Positions 18,179-23,267 of a stretch of 37,325 bases of DNA are shown here, one piece after another (position 1 is the first letter of the stretch; the number at the start of each line of letters is the position of its first letter). This DNA is from Alphaproteobacteria bacterium CG_4_9_14_3_um_filter_47_13. GTDB lineage: Bacteria; Pseudomonadota; Alphaproteobacteria; Micavibrionales; Micavibrionaceae. The stretch lies in assembly GCA_002789675.1 (NCBI GenBank), contig PFTR01000044.1:1-37325 (forward strand), written 5' to 3'. Both the position numbers and the translations under genes were made by a program. The notes under the pieces are model-generated. The model did no database searches. It worked only from the letters and a program-made list of their open reading frames with translations, and was not told the DNA's origin.

Positions 18179-18901
18179 TTAGCGCGATTGATCCTTAAGA
18201 TGACGGATTTCGGCGAATCTTTGTACTGATCCGGCGCGTAAAAAGACATTTGTCTGTTTTTCCAGTCCCAGTATTGAGGGGATTGTCGCTTTATTTTCGG
18301 CGCGTGTCTGGTAGACCGAGATCATCCGTTCTTTTAATGCCGTATTATCAGGTTCGATTGTCAGGCAGAACTCTCCATTGGCCTGTGTATATTCATGGCC
18401 GCAATAAATCAGCGTATCATCCGGCAGCGCCATAATTTTGTTCAGGGATTTCCACATTTGCCCGGCTGTTCCCTCAAAGAGCCGTCCACAACCCATAGCA
18501 AAAAGTGTATCCCCGCAAAAAAGTGCTTTTTCTTGTGGAAAGTACAGGCAGATATGATCGCTGGTATGGCCGGGTGTTTCCAGTATTTGTGCCGTGCTTG
18601 TACCGATTTTTAATAAATCGCCCTCTTTTAGCGGGATATCAAGATCCTCAATCCGGCAGGAATCGGCAGCGGGAGCAGCGATACGGCAGCCATAGGCTTT
18701 TTTGAGTGCCTGATTTCCTCCCGTATGATCCCAATGATGGTGGGTATTGATGATGGTATCGGGTTTGAGCTCTTTGTCTTCCAGCAGGTGTTTTACGGGT
18801 GCGGCTTCGGACGGATCAAGAATAGCCACAGAGCCATCTTCATCTACCAGTAAATAGGCGTAATTGTCTTTGAGCAAAGGAATAAGGGTAATCTCGATCA
18901 T
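18179..18901 (-). CDS. gloB: Hydroxyacylglutathione hydrolase (glyoxalase II)
   Basis: This 240-residue metallo-beta-lactamase-fold enzyme hydrolyses S-lactoylglutathione to lactate and glutathione. The binuclear metal motif THHHWDHTGGN is at 53-63, with further ligands in ETPGHTSDH, FCGDTLFAMGCGR and YCGHEYT. The C-terminal helical HAGH-type domain is present with the TIPSILGLEKQTNVFLR segment, which separates glyoxalase II from generic hydrolases. Its start overlaps the stop of the upstream methyltransferase gene by four bases (ATGA), so the two are translationally coupled. Confidence 0.95.
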   Translation of the reverse strand: MIEITLIPLLKDNYAYLLVDEDGSVAILDPSEAAPVKHLLEDKELKPDTIINTHHHWDHTGGNQALKKAYGCRIAAPAADSCRIEDLDIPLKEGDLLKIGTSTAQILETPGHTSDHICLYFPQEKALFCGDTLFAMGCGRLFEGTAGQMWKSLNKIMALPDDTLIYCGHEYTQANGEFCLTIEPDNTALKERMISVYQTRAENKATIPSILGLEKQTNVFLRAGSVQRFAEIRHLKDQSR

Positions 18902-19788
18902 GTCCTGATTTCCTTTGTTTCTAATGCATCGGCAAGGCGGGTTTTTGCACTGCCGGGGCGAAGGGGTTTTTGCTGGGATTGATGAGGAGACCAGCCAATG
19001 AGGAAAATAATCTCGAAAGTTGCTCTGATGCGTCCGTTTTCTTCCGGAAAGTTTTTATGATACAGGGTTTCGATTTCAGCCATAAAGGTTTTATTGAGAG
19101 GCTTTCCCCTTTCTTTCAGACTATTGCCTTCGCCCATCCCGCGTAAATCCTGCATCAGGCTACGTACATTTTTATAGGAAACGGTGATAATTTCGGAATC
19201 AACAACCGGCAGGGCAAAACCACCACGCTGCATCAGACTGCCGATCTGCTGTTTATCGGCAAAAGGAGCAATATGAGACCCCGCGCCGCGCCGGATCTTC
19301 ATTTCTGCCTGCATCATGACCTGACGTAATTCATAAAGTGTTTCTCCGCCGAGCAGTGCGGCAAGACAGACTCCATCCGGTTTAAGCGCTCTGTTCATCT
19401 GGATTAAAGCGCCCGGCATGTCATTGGTTGTGTGCAACGAAAGCGGGCTGAGAATGAGATCAAAAGTTTCCGGAGCAAAAGGCAGATATTCTTCGTCTCC
19501 CTGAATTGAAAGGGCATCCGGATCAAGAAAGTTTTCGGCAAGATCCATAATGACAAGATCCTGAATACCGGAAATATTCGTAAGGCTGCTGTCTTTAAAA
19601 CCGCGTCCGCCCATGAGCAGAGTTTTTGGAAATGTGCGTTTGATGTCCTGTAATCTGTCGATCAGGTCGGCGTTGACCCTGTTTATTAAAAAGTCATAGT
19701 TTCCAAATGTTGGCGCAGCGCGGTTGCGGTTGCGGCGGACAAGGTTCCTGTCGAAAATTTCGATGATTTTTGCGTTATTGTTTTGCAT
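18898..19788 (-). CDS. SAM-dependent methyltransferase-fold protein, NDUFAF5/BioC-like
   Basis: This protein of about 296 residues has the N-terminal signature IFDRNLVRRNRNRAA and a class I SAM-binding core (LLMGGRGF, LVIMDLAENFL, FDLILSPLSLHTTNDMPG). The pattern fits the alphaproteobacterial relatives of mitochondrial NDUFAF5, which acts in complex I assembly as an arginine hydroxylase; BioC is the other nearby family. nuoH and nuoI are in the window, which is suggestive but not proof. I choose the ATG at 19788 because it places IFDR near the N-terminus as in the family; ATGs at 19836 and 19839 would overlap the upstream gene. Translationally coupled to gloB. Confidence 0.75.
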   Translation of the reverse strand: MQNNNAKIIEIFDRNLVRRNRNRAAPTFGNYDFLINRVNADLIDRLQDIKRTFPKTLLMGGRGFKDSSLTNISGIQDLVIMDLAENFLDPDALSIQGDEEYLPFAPETFDLILSPLSLHTTNDMPGALIQMNRALKPDGVCLAALLGGETLYELRQVMMQAEMKIRRGAGSHIAPFADKQQIGSLMQRGGFALPVVDSEIITVSYKNVRSLMQDLRGMGEGNSLKERGKPLNKTFMAEIETLYHKNFPEENGRIRATFEIIFLIGWSPHQSQQKPLRPGSAKTRLADALETKEIRT

Positions 19789-19795
19789 AAAAAAA

Positions 19796-22426
19796 TTATG
19801 TTCCGGTTGATTTTGTGTCTTTTCTGTTTTTGACATCATGATCAACATCTTTGCCACGTACGGATTTTCCTGAGGGAACAAAGCCTTTTTCAACAGCATG
19901 GTGAATATCAACAAAATCAGGCGTGCTTATATAGGTGGATCTGGCAAGCGCAGCCGCTTCTTCTATTTTTTTCCTGCTTTTTTGTGCTGACCAGCCGGAA
20001 AAGCCAAGGCCAGTGGTGTTTGTACTATTCATGACGGCAGGCGCTGCGTTTATTGTCTGCTCATAAATCTGATTGGCATTCATACTCCAGTCTCCGGAAA
20101 CCTCGCTGCTATGTGCCAAAGATCTGTAAACTCTTTGAAAACGGGAAACAATATAACGGTCATTGCCAAAATCATCAATCGCCCACATCAGATTTATCAG
20201 CTTCATTAGTGGTGCATATTGCACAGGACCTCCGAGAGGGCCGCTGCTTTCTCCGGTTGTGGCAACACAAAAAGGAAAAATCCTGATGGGTGTTAGACCA
20301 AGATGGCAAAAATAGCTTTCACCAAGGCGCGCTACCTTTTCGGGCGGAATATCAAACTGCGTAGCGATAAAGCGTTTTGCCTGACTAAGGCTGGTAACTT
20401 CTTTTGGCAAAGTTATGCTCGGCGCACGGATGGTAAGACCATTGCCACTATGTCTTTGCGGAATAGGCAGATACTCGGTCACCACACCGCCCATAACAAG
20501 TCCTGTCTGCGAATGTTTGGTCAAGGGTAGAATAACGGCTTTATTGATGGTTTGGTCATCGGAGATAACAAATTCCATATCCCGCGAGGCCATGCCTTCC
20601 AGTCCTCCTTCTATCCAGCCCTCATCAATGAAAATTGATTTGATCGTTCGCAGGTTTCCTGCTGTGCCTTTAATATTTTTAAAGCGTTTATCCGCTTCTA
20701 TCCGGTCTCTCAGAAATTTCTTTGTATCCAGATTCTTTTTGGGAAGGCCGCTCTCCAGCGCCAGTGGACACTCATTCCAGGTTTCGGCTTTCATACCCAG
20801 TAGATCGTAAAGATGGAGGATTTGCATTTCTAGCCGACTATTGGGAAGAAAGCCGACATTAATGGCATTCAGGATACTTTGCGCGTTTATTTCACGGATC
20901 AGACCGTTTGTCGTAAATCCTTCCAGTTCGGGAGGGATATATTTGGGTATAATCGTGCCTTCATGTTCGCTGACGCGTAAAAAGCGGGTTTTGATCTGTT
21001 CATCAATGAAATCCGGAGCCGGAAAGAAATTAGGCCCTTTTTCCAGCGTACATCCCATCGCGGGTTTCAGTCCCAGATAGTCACGGGCAAAAAGAACCAC
21101 CGCTTTTGGTTCCCCCTGTTCGACATCATGGATAGCGCCCGAAGGCAAGGAAATAGCCTCTGTCATATGTCCTGACCAGCGTTTTCCATCAAGCTGTTTT
21201 CCGGAGCGGGGAACGGCGTTGGCAATGCCCCGTGGCAAGCCTTCATGAACAAAGATATTCAGATCGCCTGTTTCGGTGACGCGATAAGGCAGTATCTCTG
21301 TTATATCTATATTACGCGTGATGATATCAAAAATCTGGCCGTTCGTGTCATTCCGCATTGCCGTGATGCGGATCTGGCTGTCCATGGAGTTTGACGGGCG
21401 GCGCTCCTGTAGCCGTAAGCTTTTATTATCGCCAACTTTTTGAGCCACAGCAACAAAACTTGTAGCAGGCAAAGGAAGCGGTTTGCCATCGTCAGCATAA
21501 ATATGGAAGTTGCCTTCAAAACGTTCTTTGATAATGGCATCATCCCATTGTGGCGAAGTATAGAGCACTCTTGCCCCAAGCCCGCGCAGGTTTTTACGGA
21601 ATTCACGCGGCGTAAAGAAAGTGTACTCCATGGCAAGCTCCTCATGCCATGTTGCGCGATCATCTTTGCGCATAATAAATTCATAGGCCCATTTATAAGG
21701 TAAACGGAACAGGCGGGTCTGGGGGAAGCGCGGCGGGAGCTCCTCAAGAAAAAATCCCGTAAATTTTTTGTTGCCACGCGGACGGGCGTGTTCGGCATAC
21801 CATACCAACAGATCGGGTTCGGATAAATCTTCCAAAGCCTCGCTCGCGCTCTCGAAATCTCTCATTTCGAGCAATACATACTCCTCCGGCGGCGGCATCG
21901 CATAGTCACGGATAAACATCAGTCCATTTTGTTTTAGAAGATTAAAATGGTTGTCCAGGGAATTTATAAGGGCGCGTTCGGAGTGTTTGAGATTTGAAAA
22001 TATCTCATGAAGAATAAATGAGCTGATAAGGGCATCCACCGATCCTGCTTCCAGTCCGGCCATTGTTTTAATATCCCCGGTACGGAACTCAAGATTAGAG
22101 GCTACAAAATTTTTCTGCGCCGTCGATATTATTTTTTTGCTGGAATCTATGCCAATAAAATTGATTTGCGGATTTAAAACAGCCATAGCATAGGTCATTT
22201 TAGGAGAGCATCCCATATCGACAATCGTGGCGCCAGGCATAACCATAAGGTGCGCCATTGTAAACCATGCCTTGCGGATAATGGGGGCAGGCACACCGCG
22301 TAAGGCCTCATTTTTCAGATAATAGGATTCAAGCGTGGCCGAAACAGGAGAGTCAGTGTCAAGTCCTCCCTCATCGAGAACAGAGGCGGAATTATGACCA
22401 TCACTCAGATTTGACTTGTTTGCCAT
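19796..22426 (-). CDS. Large methyltransferase fusion protein with Nudix-like C-terminal region
   Basis: This 876-residue protein has a class I SAM-binding domain (about 35-270): motif I ATIVDMGCSPKMTYA (66-80), then FIGIDSSKKI with an acidic residue at strand 2, and a later DALISSFILHE. The remaining 600 residues match no family I can name. One part (about 365-480) reads ILPYRVTETGDLNIFVHEG followed by PRGIA and WSGHMTEAISLP. A later part (about 690-800) has VMGGVVTEYLPIPQR, TLPKEVTSLSQAKRFI and LGESYFCHLGLTPIRIFPF, resembling degenerate Nudix modules without a clear GX5EX7REUXEEXGU box. The start is the ATG at 22426 with AGGAAA upstream; a longer frame to 22576 would run into comF. It is divergent from comF, and the NDUFAF5-like gene follows seven bases after its stop. 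Confidence 0.8.
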   Translation of the reverse strand: MANKSNLSDGHNSASVLDEGGLDTDSPVSATLESYYLKNEALRGVPAPIIRKAWFTMAHLMVMPGATIVDMGCSPKMTYAMAVLNPQINFIGIDSSKKIISTAQKNFVASNLEFRTGDIKTMAGLEAGSVDALISSFILHEIFSNLKHSERALINSLDNHFNLLKQNGLMFIRDYAMPPPEEYVLLEMRDFESASEALEDLSEPDLLVWYAEHARPRGNKKFTGFFLEELPPRFPQTRLFRLPYKWAYEFIMRKDDRATWHEELAMEYTFFTPREFRKNLRGLGARVLYTSPQWDDAIIKERFEGNFHIYADDGKPLPLPATSFVAVAQKVGDNKSLRLQERRPSNSMDSQIRITAMRNDTNGQIFDIITRNIDITEILPYRVTETGDLNIFVHEGLPRGIANAVPRSGKQLDGKRWSGHMTEAISLPSGAIHDVEQGEPKAVVLFARDYLGLKPAMGCTLEKGPNFFPAPDFIDEQIKTRFLRVSEHEGTIIPKYIPPELEGFTTNGLIREINAQSILNAINVGFLPNSRLEMQILHLYDLLGMKAETWNECPLALESGLPKKNLDTKKFLRDRIEADKRFKNIKGTAGNLRTIKSIFIDEGWIEGGLEGMASRDMEFVISDDQTINKAVILPLTKHSQTGLVMGGVVTEYLPIPQRHSGNGLTIRAPSITLPKEVTSLSQAKRFIATQFDIPPEKVARLGESYFCHLGLTPIRIFPFCVATTGESSGPLGGPVQYAPLMKLINLMWAIDDFGNDRYIVSRFQRVYRSLAHSSEVSGDWSMNANQIYEQTINAAPAVMNSTNTTGLGFSGWSAQKSRKKIEEAAALARSTYISTPDFVDIHHAVEKGFVPSGKSVRGKDVDHDVKNRKDTKSTGT

Positions 22427-22502: not shown

Positions 22503-23267
22503 ATGGAAATACAGAGGATATATAAGGACAGGCTTTGGAAAGCTCTTGATTTTGTGCTCCCGCCACGCTGCGTCATGACGGGGGAGATTGTGGACAGGCA
22601 GGGTATGATTGACCCTAAAATCTGGCGTGATCTGCATTTTATTAGTGATCCTGTCTGTGCCTGTTGTGGATTCCCTTTTGAGTTCGAGGTTGCAGAAGGG
22701 GATGAAACAGGGCTGTTATGCGGTAACTGTCTTGTGAAAAGACCCGTTTATGCCAGTGCCCGCGCTGCACTTGTTTATGATAATATAAGCCGTGGTATGA
22801 TTTTGAAATTCAAGCATGCGGATCAGACTCACGTCGTTCACGCTTTTGTTCCCTGGCTCAGGCGGGTGGGGGCGGATATGCTGGGCAAGGCGGATTACCT
22901 TGTCCCTGTACCACTCCATCGTTTCCGGTTGATCCAAAGACGCTATAATCAGGCTGCCCTGATTGCGCAGGCACTTGGCAGGGAATGCGGTATTCCGTAT
23001 CTTCCCGATCTATTAAAGCGCTATAAATCGACAAAGAGTCAGGGGTATCTTGGTTATAAGGAACGGCAACAGAATGTCAAAAACGTATTCACGATTGCCC
23101 CGCGTCACGAGACTGTTTTTGCGGGTAAAACTATTATTCTGATTGATGATGTCTATACAACAGGAGCAACGGTGAAAGAGTGTGCCAAAGCCCTGTTAAA
23201 AGCGGGTGCAAAAGAAGTGCATGTTCTTGCCGTGGCGCGGGTTGTCAGGGCAGAATTTAACGGGTGA
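22503..23267 (+). CDS. comF: ComF family phosphoribosyltransferase-like protein
   Basis: This 254-residue protein has an N-terminal zinc-finger region (PPRCVMTG, CACCGFPF, LLCGNC) and a C-terminal phosphoribosyltransferase fold with the PRPP-loop IILIDDVYTTGAT (about 211-223). The middle motif VPVPLHRFRLIQRRYNQA is typical. ComF proteins are linked to DNA uptake and recombination in competent bacteria; in alphaproteobacteria the biochemical role is unsettled. In many relatives the gene lies beside an NDUFAF5-like methyltransferase, as it nearly does here, with the large fusion gene between them. It begins at the ATG at 22503. dnaE starts 72 bases after its stop. Confidence 0.93.
   Translation: MEIQRIYKDRLWKALDFVLPPRCVMTGEIVDRQGMIDPKIWRDLHFISDPVCACCGFPFEFEVAEGDETGLLCGNCLVKRPVYASARAALVYDNISRGMILKFKHADQTHVVHAFVPWLRRVGADMLGKADYLVPVPLHRFRLIQRRYNQAALIAQALGRECGIPYLPDLLKRYKSTKSQGYLGYKERQQNVKNVFTIAPRHETVFAGKTIILIDDVYTTGATVKECAKALLKAGAKEVHVLAVARVVRAEFNG

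Follow-up and report, generated by a model that had tools for sequence, protein, structure and literature searches.

The fusion gene and its neighbours

The window, by which we mean the whole 37,325-nucleotide stretch that was analysed, contains at 19796-22426 a gene for a protein of 876 residues in which a methyltransferase is joined to a large C-terminal region. An 876-residue gene had been placed here by the earlier note; the gene is real and lies on the minus strand, where it forms a single open frame in the reverse complement (22426 to 19796), and translation of the plus strand over 19796-22426 gives stops throughout. Inspection of the sequence found AGGAAAAGCAGGAAACC-ATG at the start, 22426, with AGGAA a short way upstream of the ATG, and we regard AGGAAAAGCAGGAAACC as a plausible candidate ribosome-binding site. 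An alternative in-frame start at 22576 would give a protein of 926 residues and would run into comF. The gene and its neighbours are as follows.

19796..22426, minus strand: fusion gene for a methyltransferase, a predicted tandem Nudix-fold region and a variable tail, 876 residues (open frame, AGGAA, order-wide orthologues)
19799..20176, minus strand: variable C-terminal tail, residues 751-876, poorly conserved (alignment; 0 columns conserved at 90% in residues 736-765)
18898..19788, minus strand: NDUFAF5-like methyltransferase, the next gene downstream (Pfam Methyltransf_11; present in 78/84 relatives; 'NDUFAF5-like' is the putative label of the earlier note)
18179..18901, minus strand: gloB, hydroxyacylglutathione hydrolase, third gene in the same-strand run (Pfam HAGH_C and Lactamase_B)
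22503..23267, plus strand: comF, divergent neighbour (Pfam DZR_2 and Pribosyltran; present in 78/84 relatives)

In the alignment of relatives, conservation ends at about residue 750 and is followed by the variable tail.

Methyltransferase domain and tandem Nudix region

The N-terminal part of the protein contains three features.

21422..22300, minus strand: class I SAM-methyltransferase domain, residues 43-335 (Pfam Methyltransf_31; structural matches with Z about 18-20 over residues 43-332)
22190..22225, minus strand: SAM motif I, which reads DMGCSP-K in this protein and is shorter by one residue than the consensus DMGCxDG (the column is Gly in 89/92; deleted here and in one congener)
21617..21871, minus strand: methyltransferase insert, residues 186-270, which separates a late core strand from the next helix (conservation by segment; secondary structure)

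A Pfam scan of the 876-residue protein gave Methyltransf_31 (E 6.3e-11, residues 65-176) and Methyltransf_11 (E 1.6e-6), both passing cut-offs, and nothing downstream of residue 176; scans of the whole protein with Pfam, NCBIfam, PHROGs and PADLOC returned generic methyltransferase matches only. Comparison with solved methyltransferases (Z 18-20, model positions 14-303, equivalent to residues 43-332) indicated a Rossmann-like fold over the whole domain. The SAM-binding fold proposed in the earlier note is thus confirmed as a methyltransferase, but it is not confined to the N-terminal quarter, and the boundary drawn at residue 270 was too early because the domain reaches approximately residue 335. 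The small-molecule class I SAM-methyltransferases SpnL, TleD, RebM and YcgJ match the entire domain (Z 19.8-20.2) with an identity of 11-19%, whereas the fusion protein has a different, highly conserved putative cap insert and the window copy a shortened motif I. This insert (residues 186-270; GFFLEELPPR...TRLFRLPxKWAYEFIxRKDxR) is better conserved than any other segment of the protein and may act as a substrate cap.

The same motif I glycine deletion occurs in a member of the same genus from a separate assembly (L178), which makes a sequencing error improbable. Despite the missing loop glycine, the window copy keeps D70, G72 and D94; among the 92 relatives the loop glycine is present in 89, D70 in 73 and D94 in 83. 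Absence of the glycine from the window copy and its congener, together with changes of D70 in about one-fifth of relatives, suggests that methyl transfer may have been lost in some branches.

The region that follows was examined with AlphaFold2 models built with the 92 relatives and no templates. A model of residues 30-765 had a pLDDT of 91.7 and a pTM of 0.92, but the matches of a structure search with this full model were taken up by the methyltransferase domain and were uninformative on the C-terminal part, which was therefore modelled alone (residues 338-750, pLDDT 93.6). Foldseek searches with this second model detected the Escherichia coli GDP-mannose hydrolase NudK/YffH (E 6.8e-8) and EvaA (E 1.5e-7) among 159 PDB matches with E < 0.001, and the best 50 of the 159 were all Nudix-fold proteins, EvaA included. 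With VIA, EvaA was matched over model positions 1-413 and EvaA 53-446 (Z 17.0, rmsd 4.3, 311 residues aligned), followed at far lower scores by ADP-ribose pyrophosphatases that covered the first repeat only (Z 9-11.7); the NrtR Nudix domain 3gz6 was also among the structural matches (Z 9.5). A search of a viral structure library had only single Nudix hydrolases among the named matches listed. In these models, residues ~338-750 form a tandem pair of Nudix folds, of the ADP-ribose/GDP-mannose pyrophosphatase type, that shares the arrangement of EvaA.

20747..21415, minus strand: predicted Nudix fold 1, residues 338-560 (Foldseek match to GDP-mannose hydrolase at E 6.8e-8; Z 9-11.7 to ADP-ribose pyrophosphatases; profile comparison with the latter)
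21158..21190, minus strand: DGxxWSGHMxE motif, residues 413-423, located where the Nudix box would begin (conservation in 92 sequences)
20177..20746, minus strand: predicted Nudix fold 2, residues 561-750 (EvaA whole-model match Z 17.0; profile comparison with ADP-ribose pyrophosphatases and with repeat 1)
20270..20410, minus strand: box-equivalent helix of Nudix fold 2 and the following strands (LPKEVTSLSQAKRFI...LGESYFCHLGLTPIRIFPF), aligned to the REuxEE helix and SPGgxxE segment of ADP-ribose pyrophosphatases

The Nudix-like character that the earlier note gave to the C-terminal region is therefore borne out by significant structural matches from Foldseek and VIA, with the correction that there are two tandem folds, and the structure searches pointed to Nudix proteins instead of a known unrelated fold. 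All three peptides quoted in that note were found in the protein and, in the models, lie within or adjoining strand and helix segments that match the Nudix-box and SPG/E regions.

Comparisons of sequence profiles provided a second line of evidence. Neither scanning the C-terminal regions of the 92 proteins with Pfam nor searching PDB sequences with a profile yielded a usable match. With HHalign, repeat 1 matched a set of 27 ADP-ribose pyrophosphatases in an alignment that kept the strands, the box helix and the SPG/E segment in register (E 3e-4 to 3e-3); repeat 2 matched ADP-ribose pyrophosphatases at E 5e-3 to 7e-3, and the two repeats matched each other at E 1e-3 to 2e-3. Each of these three scores exceeded all 100 of 100 column shuffles and a reversed control. 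With a mixed Nudix profile, made up mostly of the order's other Nudix subfamilies, the signal did not rise above shuffles. The profile signals are single comparisons and modest alone, yet they are independent of structure prediction. This is relevant to the alternative that the C-terminal region has another fold and that the Nudix match is a modelling artefact. Such an artefact would explain why neither single sequences nor Pfam gave a significant match to Nudix and why the mixed profile lacked signal, but it is very improbable given the high-confidence template-free models, the uniformly Nudix-fold best 50 of 159 matches and the ADP-ribose pyrophosphatase profile signal in the same register. 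We are highly confident in the modelled architecture of a class I SAM-methyltransferase (43-335) followed by two ADP-ribose-pyrophosphatase-type Nudix folds (338-560 and 561-750).

The Nudix box itself (Gx5Ex7REUxEExGU) was found in none of the 92 sequences with either a strict or a relaxed pattern, in agreement with the absence of a canonical box reported in the earlier note. Within the motif that takes its place, D413, W417, S418, H420 and E423 are each conserved in at least 89/92 sequences, and R399, N403 and R407, located just N-terminal of it, are near-invariant. The conservation of these eight polar positions in the first Nudix fold argues for a retained ligand site.

Three known groups of Nudix proteins are informative for comparison. 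ADP-ribose pyrophosphatases and GDP-mannose hydrolases (NudF, NudK; TIGR00052) share the Nudix fold with leading beta strands, and both repeats match them weakly by profile, above shuffles; unlike these enzymes, the window protein lacks the Nudix box and the catalytic glutamates in both repeats, and it has a tandem arrangement in one methyltransferase-fused chain where NudF and NudK form a homodimer. The window's own genome had no match to TIGR00052, and PF00293 identified no more than two clear Nudix hydrolases in it. NrtR-type regulators also share the fold, there within a regulatory protein, but they have a single Nudix domain with a DNA-binding domain and no methyltransferase. EvaA (dTDP-sugar 2,3-dehydratase, PDB 4J7G/4J7H, Pfam PF03559 Hexose_dehydrat), whose catalytic residues E139 and E190 lie in pocket A, shares the two tandem Nudix-type folds per chain and the overall arrangement but is not fused to a methyltransferase. 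It belongs to the Nudix superfamily and is an NDP-sugar 2,3-dehydratase, not a hydrolase, with two domains and two nucleotide-sugar pockets that both bind NDP-sugars, one being an inactive leftover of duplication (PMC8987622).

Membership of the fusion family in PF03559 was rejected at the sequence level by a test against 11 true members from plasmids. These plasmid proteins were located with a 61-residue probe and then confirmed by annotation and Pfam. We take this probe to represent a motif of the PF03559 family. None of the 92 fusion-family members matched PF03559 at E values up to 5, whereas true members scored 167-514 bits, and HHalign against the 11 true NDP-hexose 2,3-dehydratases gave probabilities of 0.1-0.3%, inside the shuffle range. 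A PF03559 search of 299 genomes of the phylum gave no match anywhere, controls being equally without match, and is uninformative for that reason. Repeats within the EvaA family resemble each other at E 7e-44, whereas those of the fusion protein are barely recognizable (about 1e-3), indicating that the two tandem duplications are probably separate. A plasmid from Hoeflea carried a divergent NDP-hexose 2,3-dehydratase between glycosyltransferase genes (L272:5686-6966), which places this enzyme on an alphaproteobacterial plasmid and not in the usual actinobacterial antibiotic cluster.

Distribution and gene neighbourhood

Profile searches matched the protein in 35/38 close genomes and in 141/142 genomes of the order, including 98/98 of high quality. 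Most matches in the order are full length; among the weakest, some probably represent no more than a methyltransferase core. All 80 named loci came from records labelled Micavibrio or Alphaproteobacteria, apart from two labelled Rhodospirillaceae and a few labelled only Pseudomonadota or Proteobacteria; from these labels we take the order to be Micavibrionales. Outside the order, full-length matches were restricted to two genomes among 289 drawn from the class. When only the C-terminal part served as query, 385 class genomes again yielded these two outsiders, and 398 genomes of the phylum yielded no match except in the window's own genome. No C-terminal part was seen without a methyltransferase: the match rows from these 398 and 385 genomes all lay in frames of at least 750 residues. 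Separation of the two parts into different genes, which the earlier note had raised as a possibility in close relatives, was thus never seen in the genomes searched. The two outsiders (L138 in G185 and L139 in G223, from other families of the class) are placed by the tree, at a support of 1.0, with a paralogue clade rather than the syntenic orthologues, which suggests transfer, and their neighbourhoods are unrelated.

The window's own genome contains such a paralogue, 29% identical to the fusion protein and with motif I intact (contig C70, 8242-10359; L226:8113-10314, minus strand). It lies downstream of cytochrome bc1 genes (Rieske, cytochrome b, cytochrome c1) together with DUF924 and a Na/Pi cotransporter, a gene order also found in a second genome (L228 in G002). 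In another genome (G333, contig C35, 59135-61539) the fusion gene is present as three fragments in different frames with one stop, reflecting either a decayed gene or assembly errors.

Neighbour counts were made on relatives thinned to <85% identity (n=84). A divergent comF was found upstream in 78/84 and the NDUFAF5-like methyltransferase gene downstream on the same strand in 78/84, mostly within ~150 bases; paralogue-type copies had these neighbours in 0/5. The conserved neighbourhood proposed in the earlier note therefore exists, but comF and the NDUFAF5-like gene are also adjacent and divergent, with no fusion gene, in most of 29 other alphaproteobacterial loci (L237-L265). We rejected the idea that the location beside comF proves a functional link: the two neighbours form an ancestral alphaproteobacterial pair, location by itself shows no such link, and the shared position may merely record an insertion site. 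Most likely, the fusion gene was inserted between this old divergent pair in Micavibrionales. The short downstream gaps suggest co-transcription of the fusion gene with the downstream genes.

Proposed function and alternatives

The explanation that we favour, while holding it tentatively, is that the protein is a methyltransferase whose nucleotide-linked substrate or effector is held by a non-hydrolytic Nudix pseudo-dimer. The two box-less Nudix folds would pack as a single EvaA-like pseudo-dimer in which hydrolysis has been lost, and the pocket bearing DGxxWSGHMxE would hold a nucleotide-linked compound such as an NDP-sugar or ADP-ribose. The methyltransferase domain would then methylate either the bound compound itself or a group that this compound presents, and the insert at 186-270 would serve as the substrate cap. 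We consider this specific mechanism, with the box-less pair holding the compound for methylation, conceivable but slightly less secure than the general explanation. Counted against the latter are the possible loss of methyl transfer in some branches, given the missing motif I glycine and the changes of D70, and the fact that none of the neighbours (comF, gloB and the NDUFAF5-like methyltransferase gene) is a nucleotide-sugar gene. More speculative still is an evolutionary extension in which the fusion proteins are an order-defining enzyme family and an ADP-ribose-pyrophosphatase dimer was, for a second and independent time, converted into a single-chain non-hydrolytic Nudix pair, with the DGxxWSGHMxE site coupled to SAM methylation and with a modified nucleotide or nucleotide-sugar unique to Micavibrionales.

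Several other functions could account for part of these observations. In NrtR, the Nudix domain is a binder of ADP-ribose that governs attachment to DNA, and by analogy the box-less pair may be a regulatory sensor that binds a signal nucleotide, for example ADP-ribose, and gates the methyltransferase. The NrtR structural match (3gz6, Z 9.5) and the loss of the box with retention of polar residues are consistent with this, and with two separate Nudix copies one site could be allosteric, given that EvaA has a non-catalytic pocket B (PMC8987622); since conservation peaks in the methyltransferase cap, suggesting a fixed substrate, we view a sensor as unlikely. Rather less likely again is a bifunctional nucleotide-sugar enzyme, whose Nudix pair would be a non-hydrolytic lyase or dehydratase like EvaA and whose methyltransferase would act on the product. 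This would fit the whole-length match to EvaA (Z 17.0), the near-invariant H420-x-x-E423 in the predicted pocket region and the proximity of 2,3-dehydratase and methyltransferase genes on Streptomyces plasmids, as in antibiotic sugar clusters, but profile similarity to 2,3-dehydratases does not rise above shuffles, Hexose_dehydrat matches 0/92 members, the two duplications look independent and sugar genes are absent nearby. Equally doubtful is a pseudo-enzyme scaffold, with both parts largely inactive and the protein assembling or binding a partner, for example the product of the NDUFAF5-like neighbour. Loss of the SAM-loop glycine in the window copy and its congener, loss of the Nudix boxes and the location of the paralogue behind cytochrome bc1 genes could all be read in this way; most relatives, however, retain motif I together with the acidic residue of motif II, many predicted pocket polar residues are near-invariant, and the ancestral gene pair accounts for the neighbour linkage.

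Here we have described a protein that is a new architecture of known folds and not a new fold. No description of such a methyltransferase-Nudix fusion was found in a search of open-licence papers, and beyond the methyltransferase core there is no Pfam or NCBIfam family model for it. We show that the fusion is strictly conserved as a single chain throughout Micavibrionales, an order of little-studied, partly predatory bacteria. Should the Nudix pair prove to be a substrate site put to a new use, the fusion would be a second box-less tandem Nudix protein, apparently independent of the 2,3-dehydratases, and would point to a lineage-specific methylated nucleotide-linked metabolite in these bacteria.
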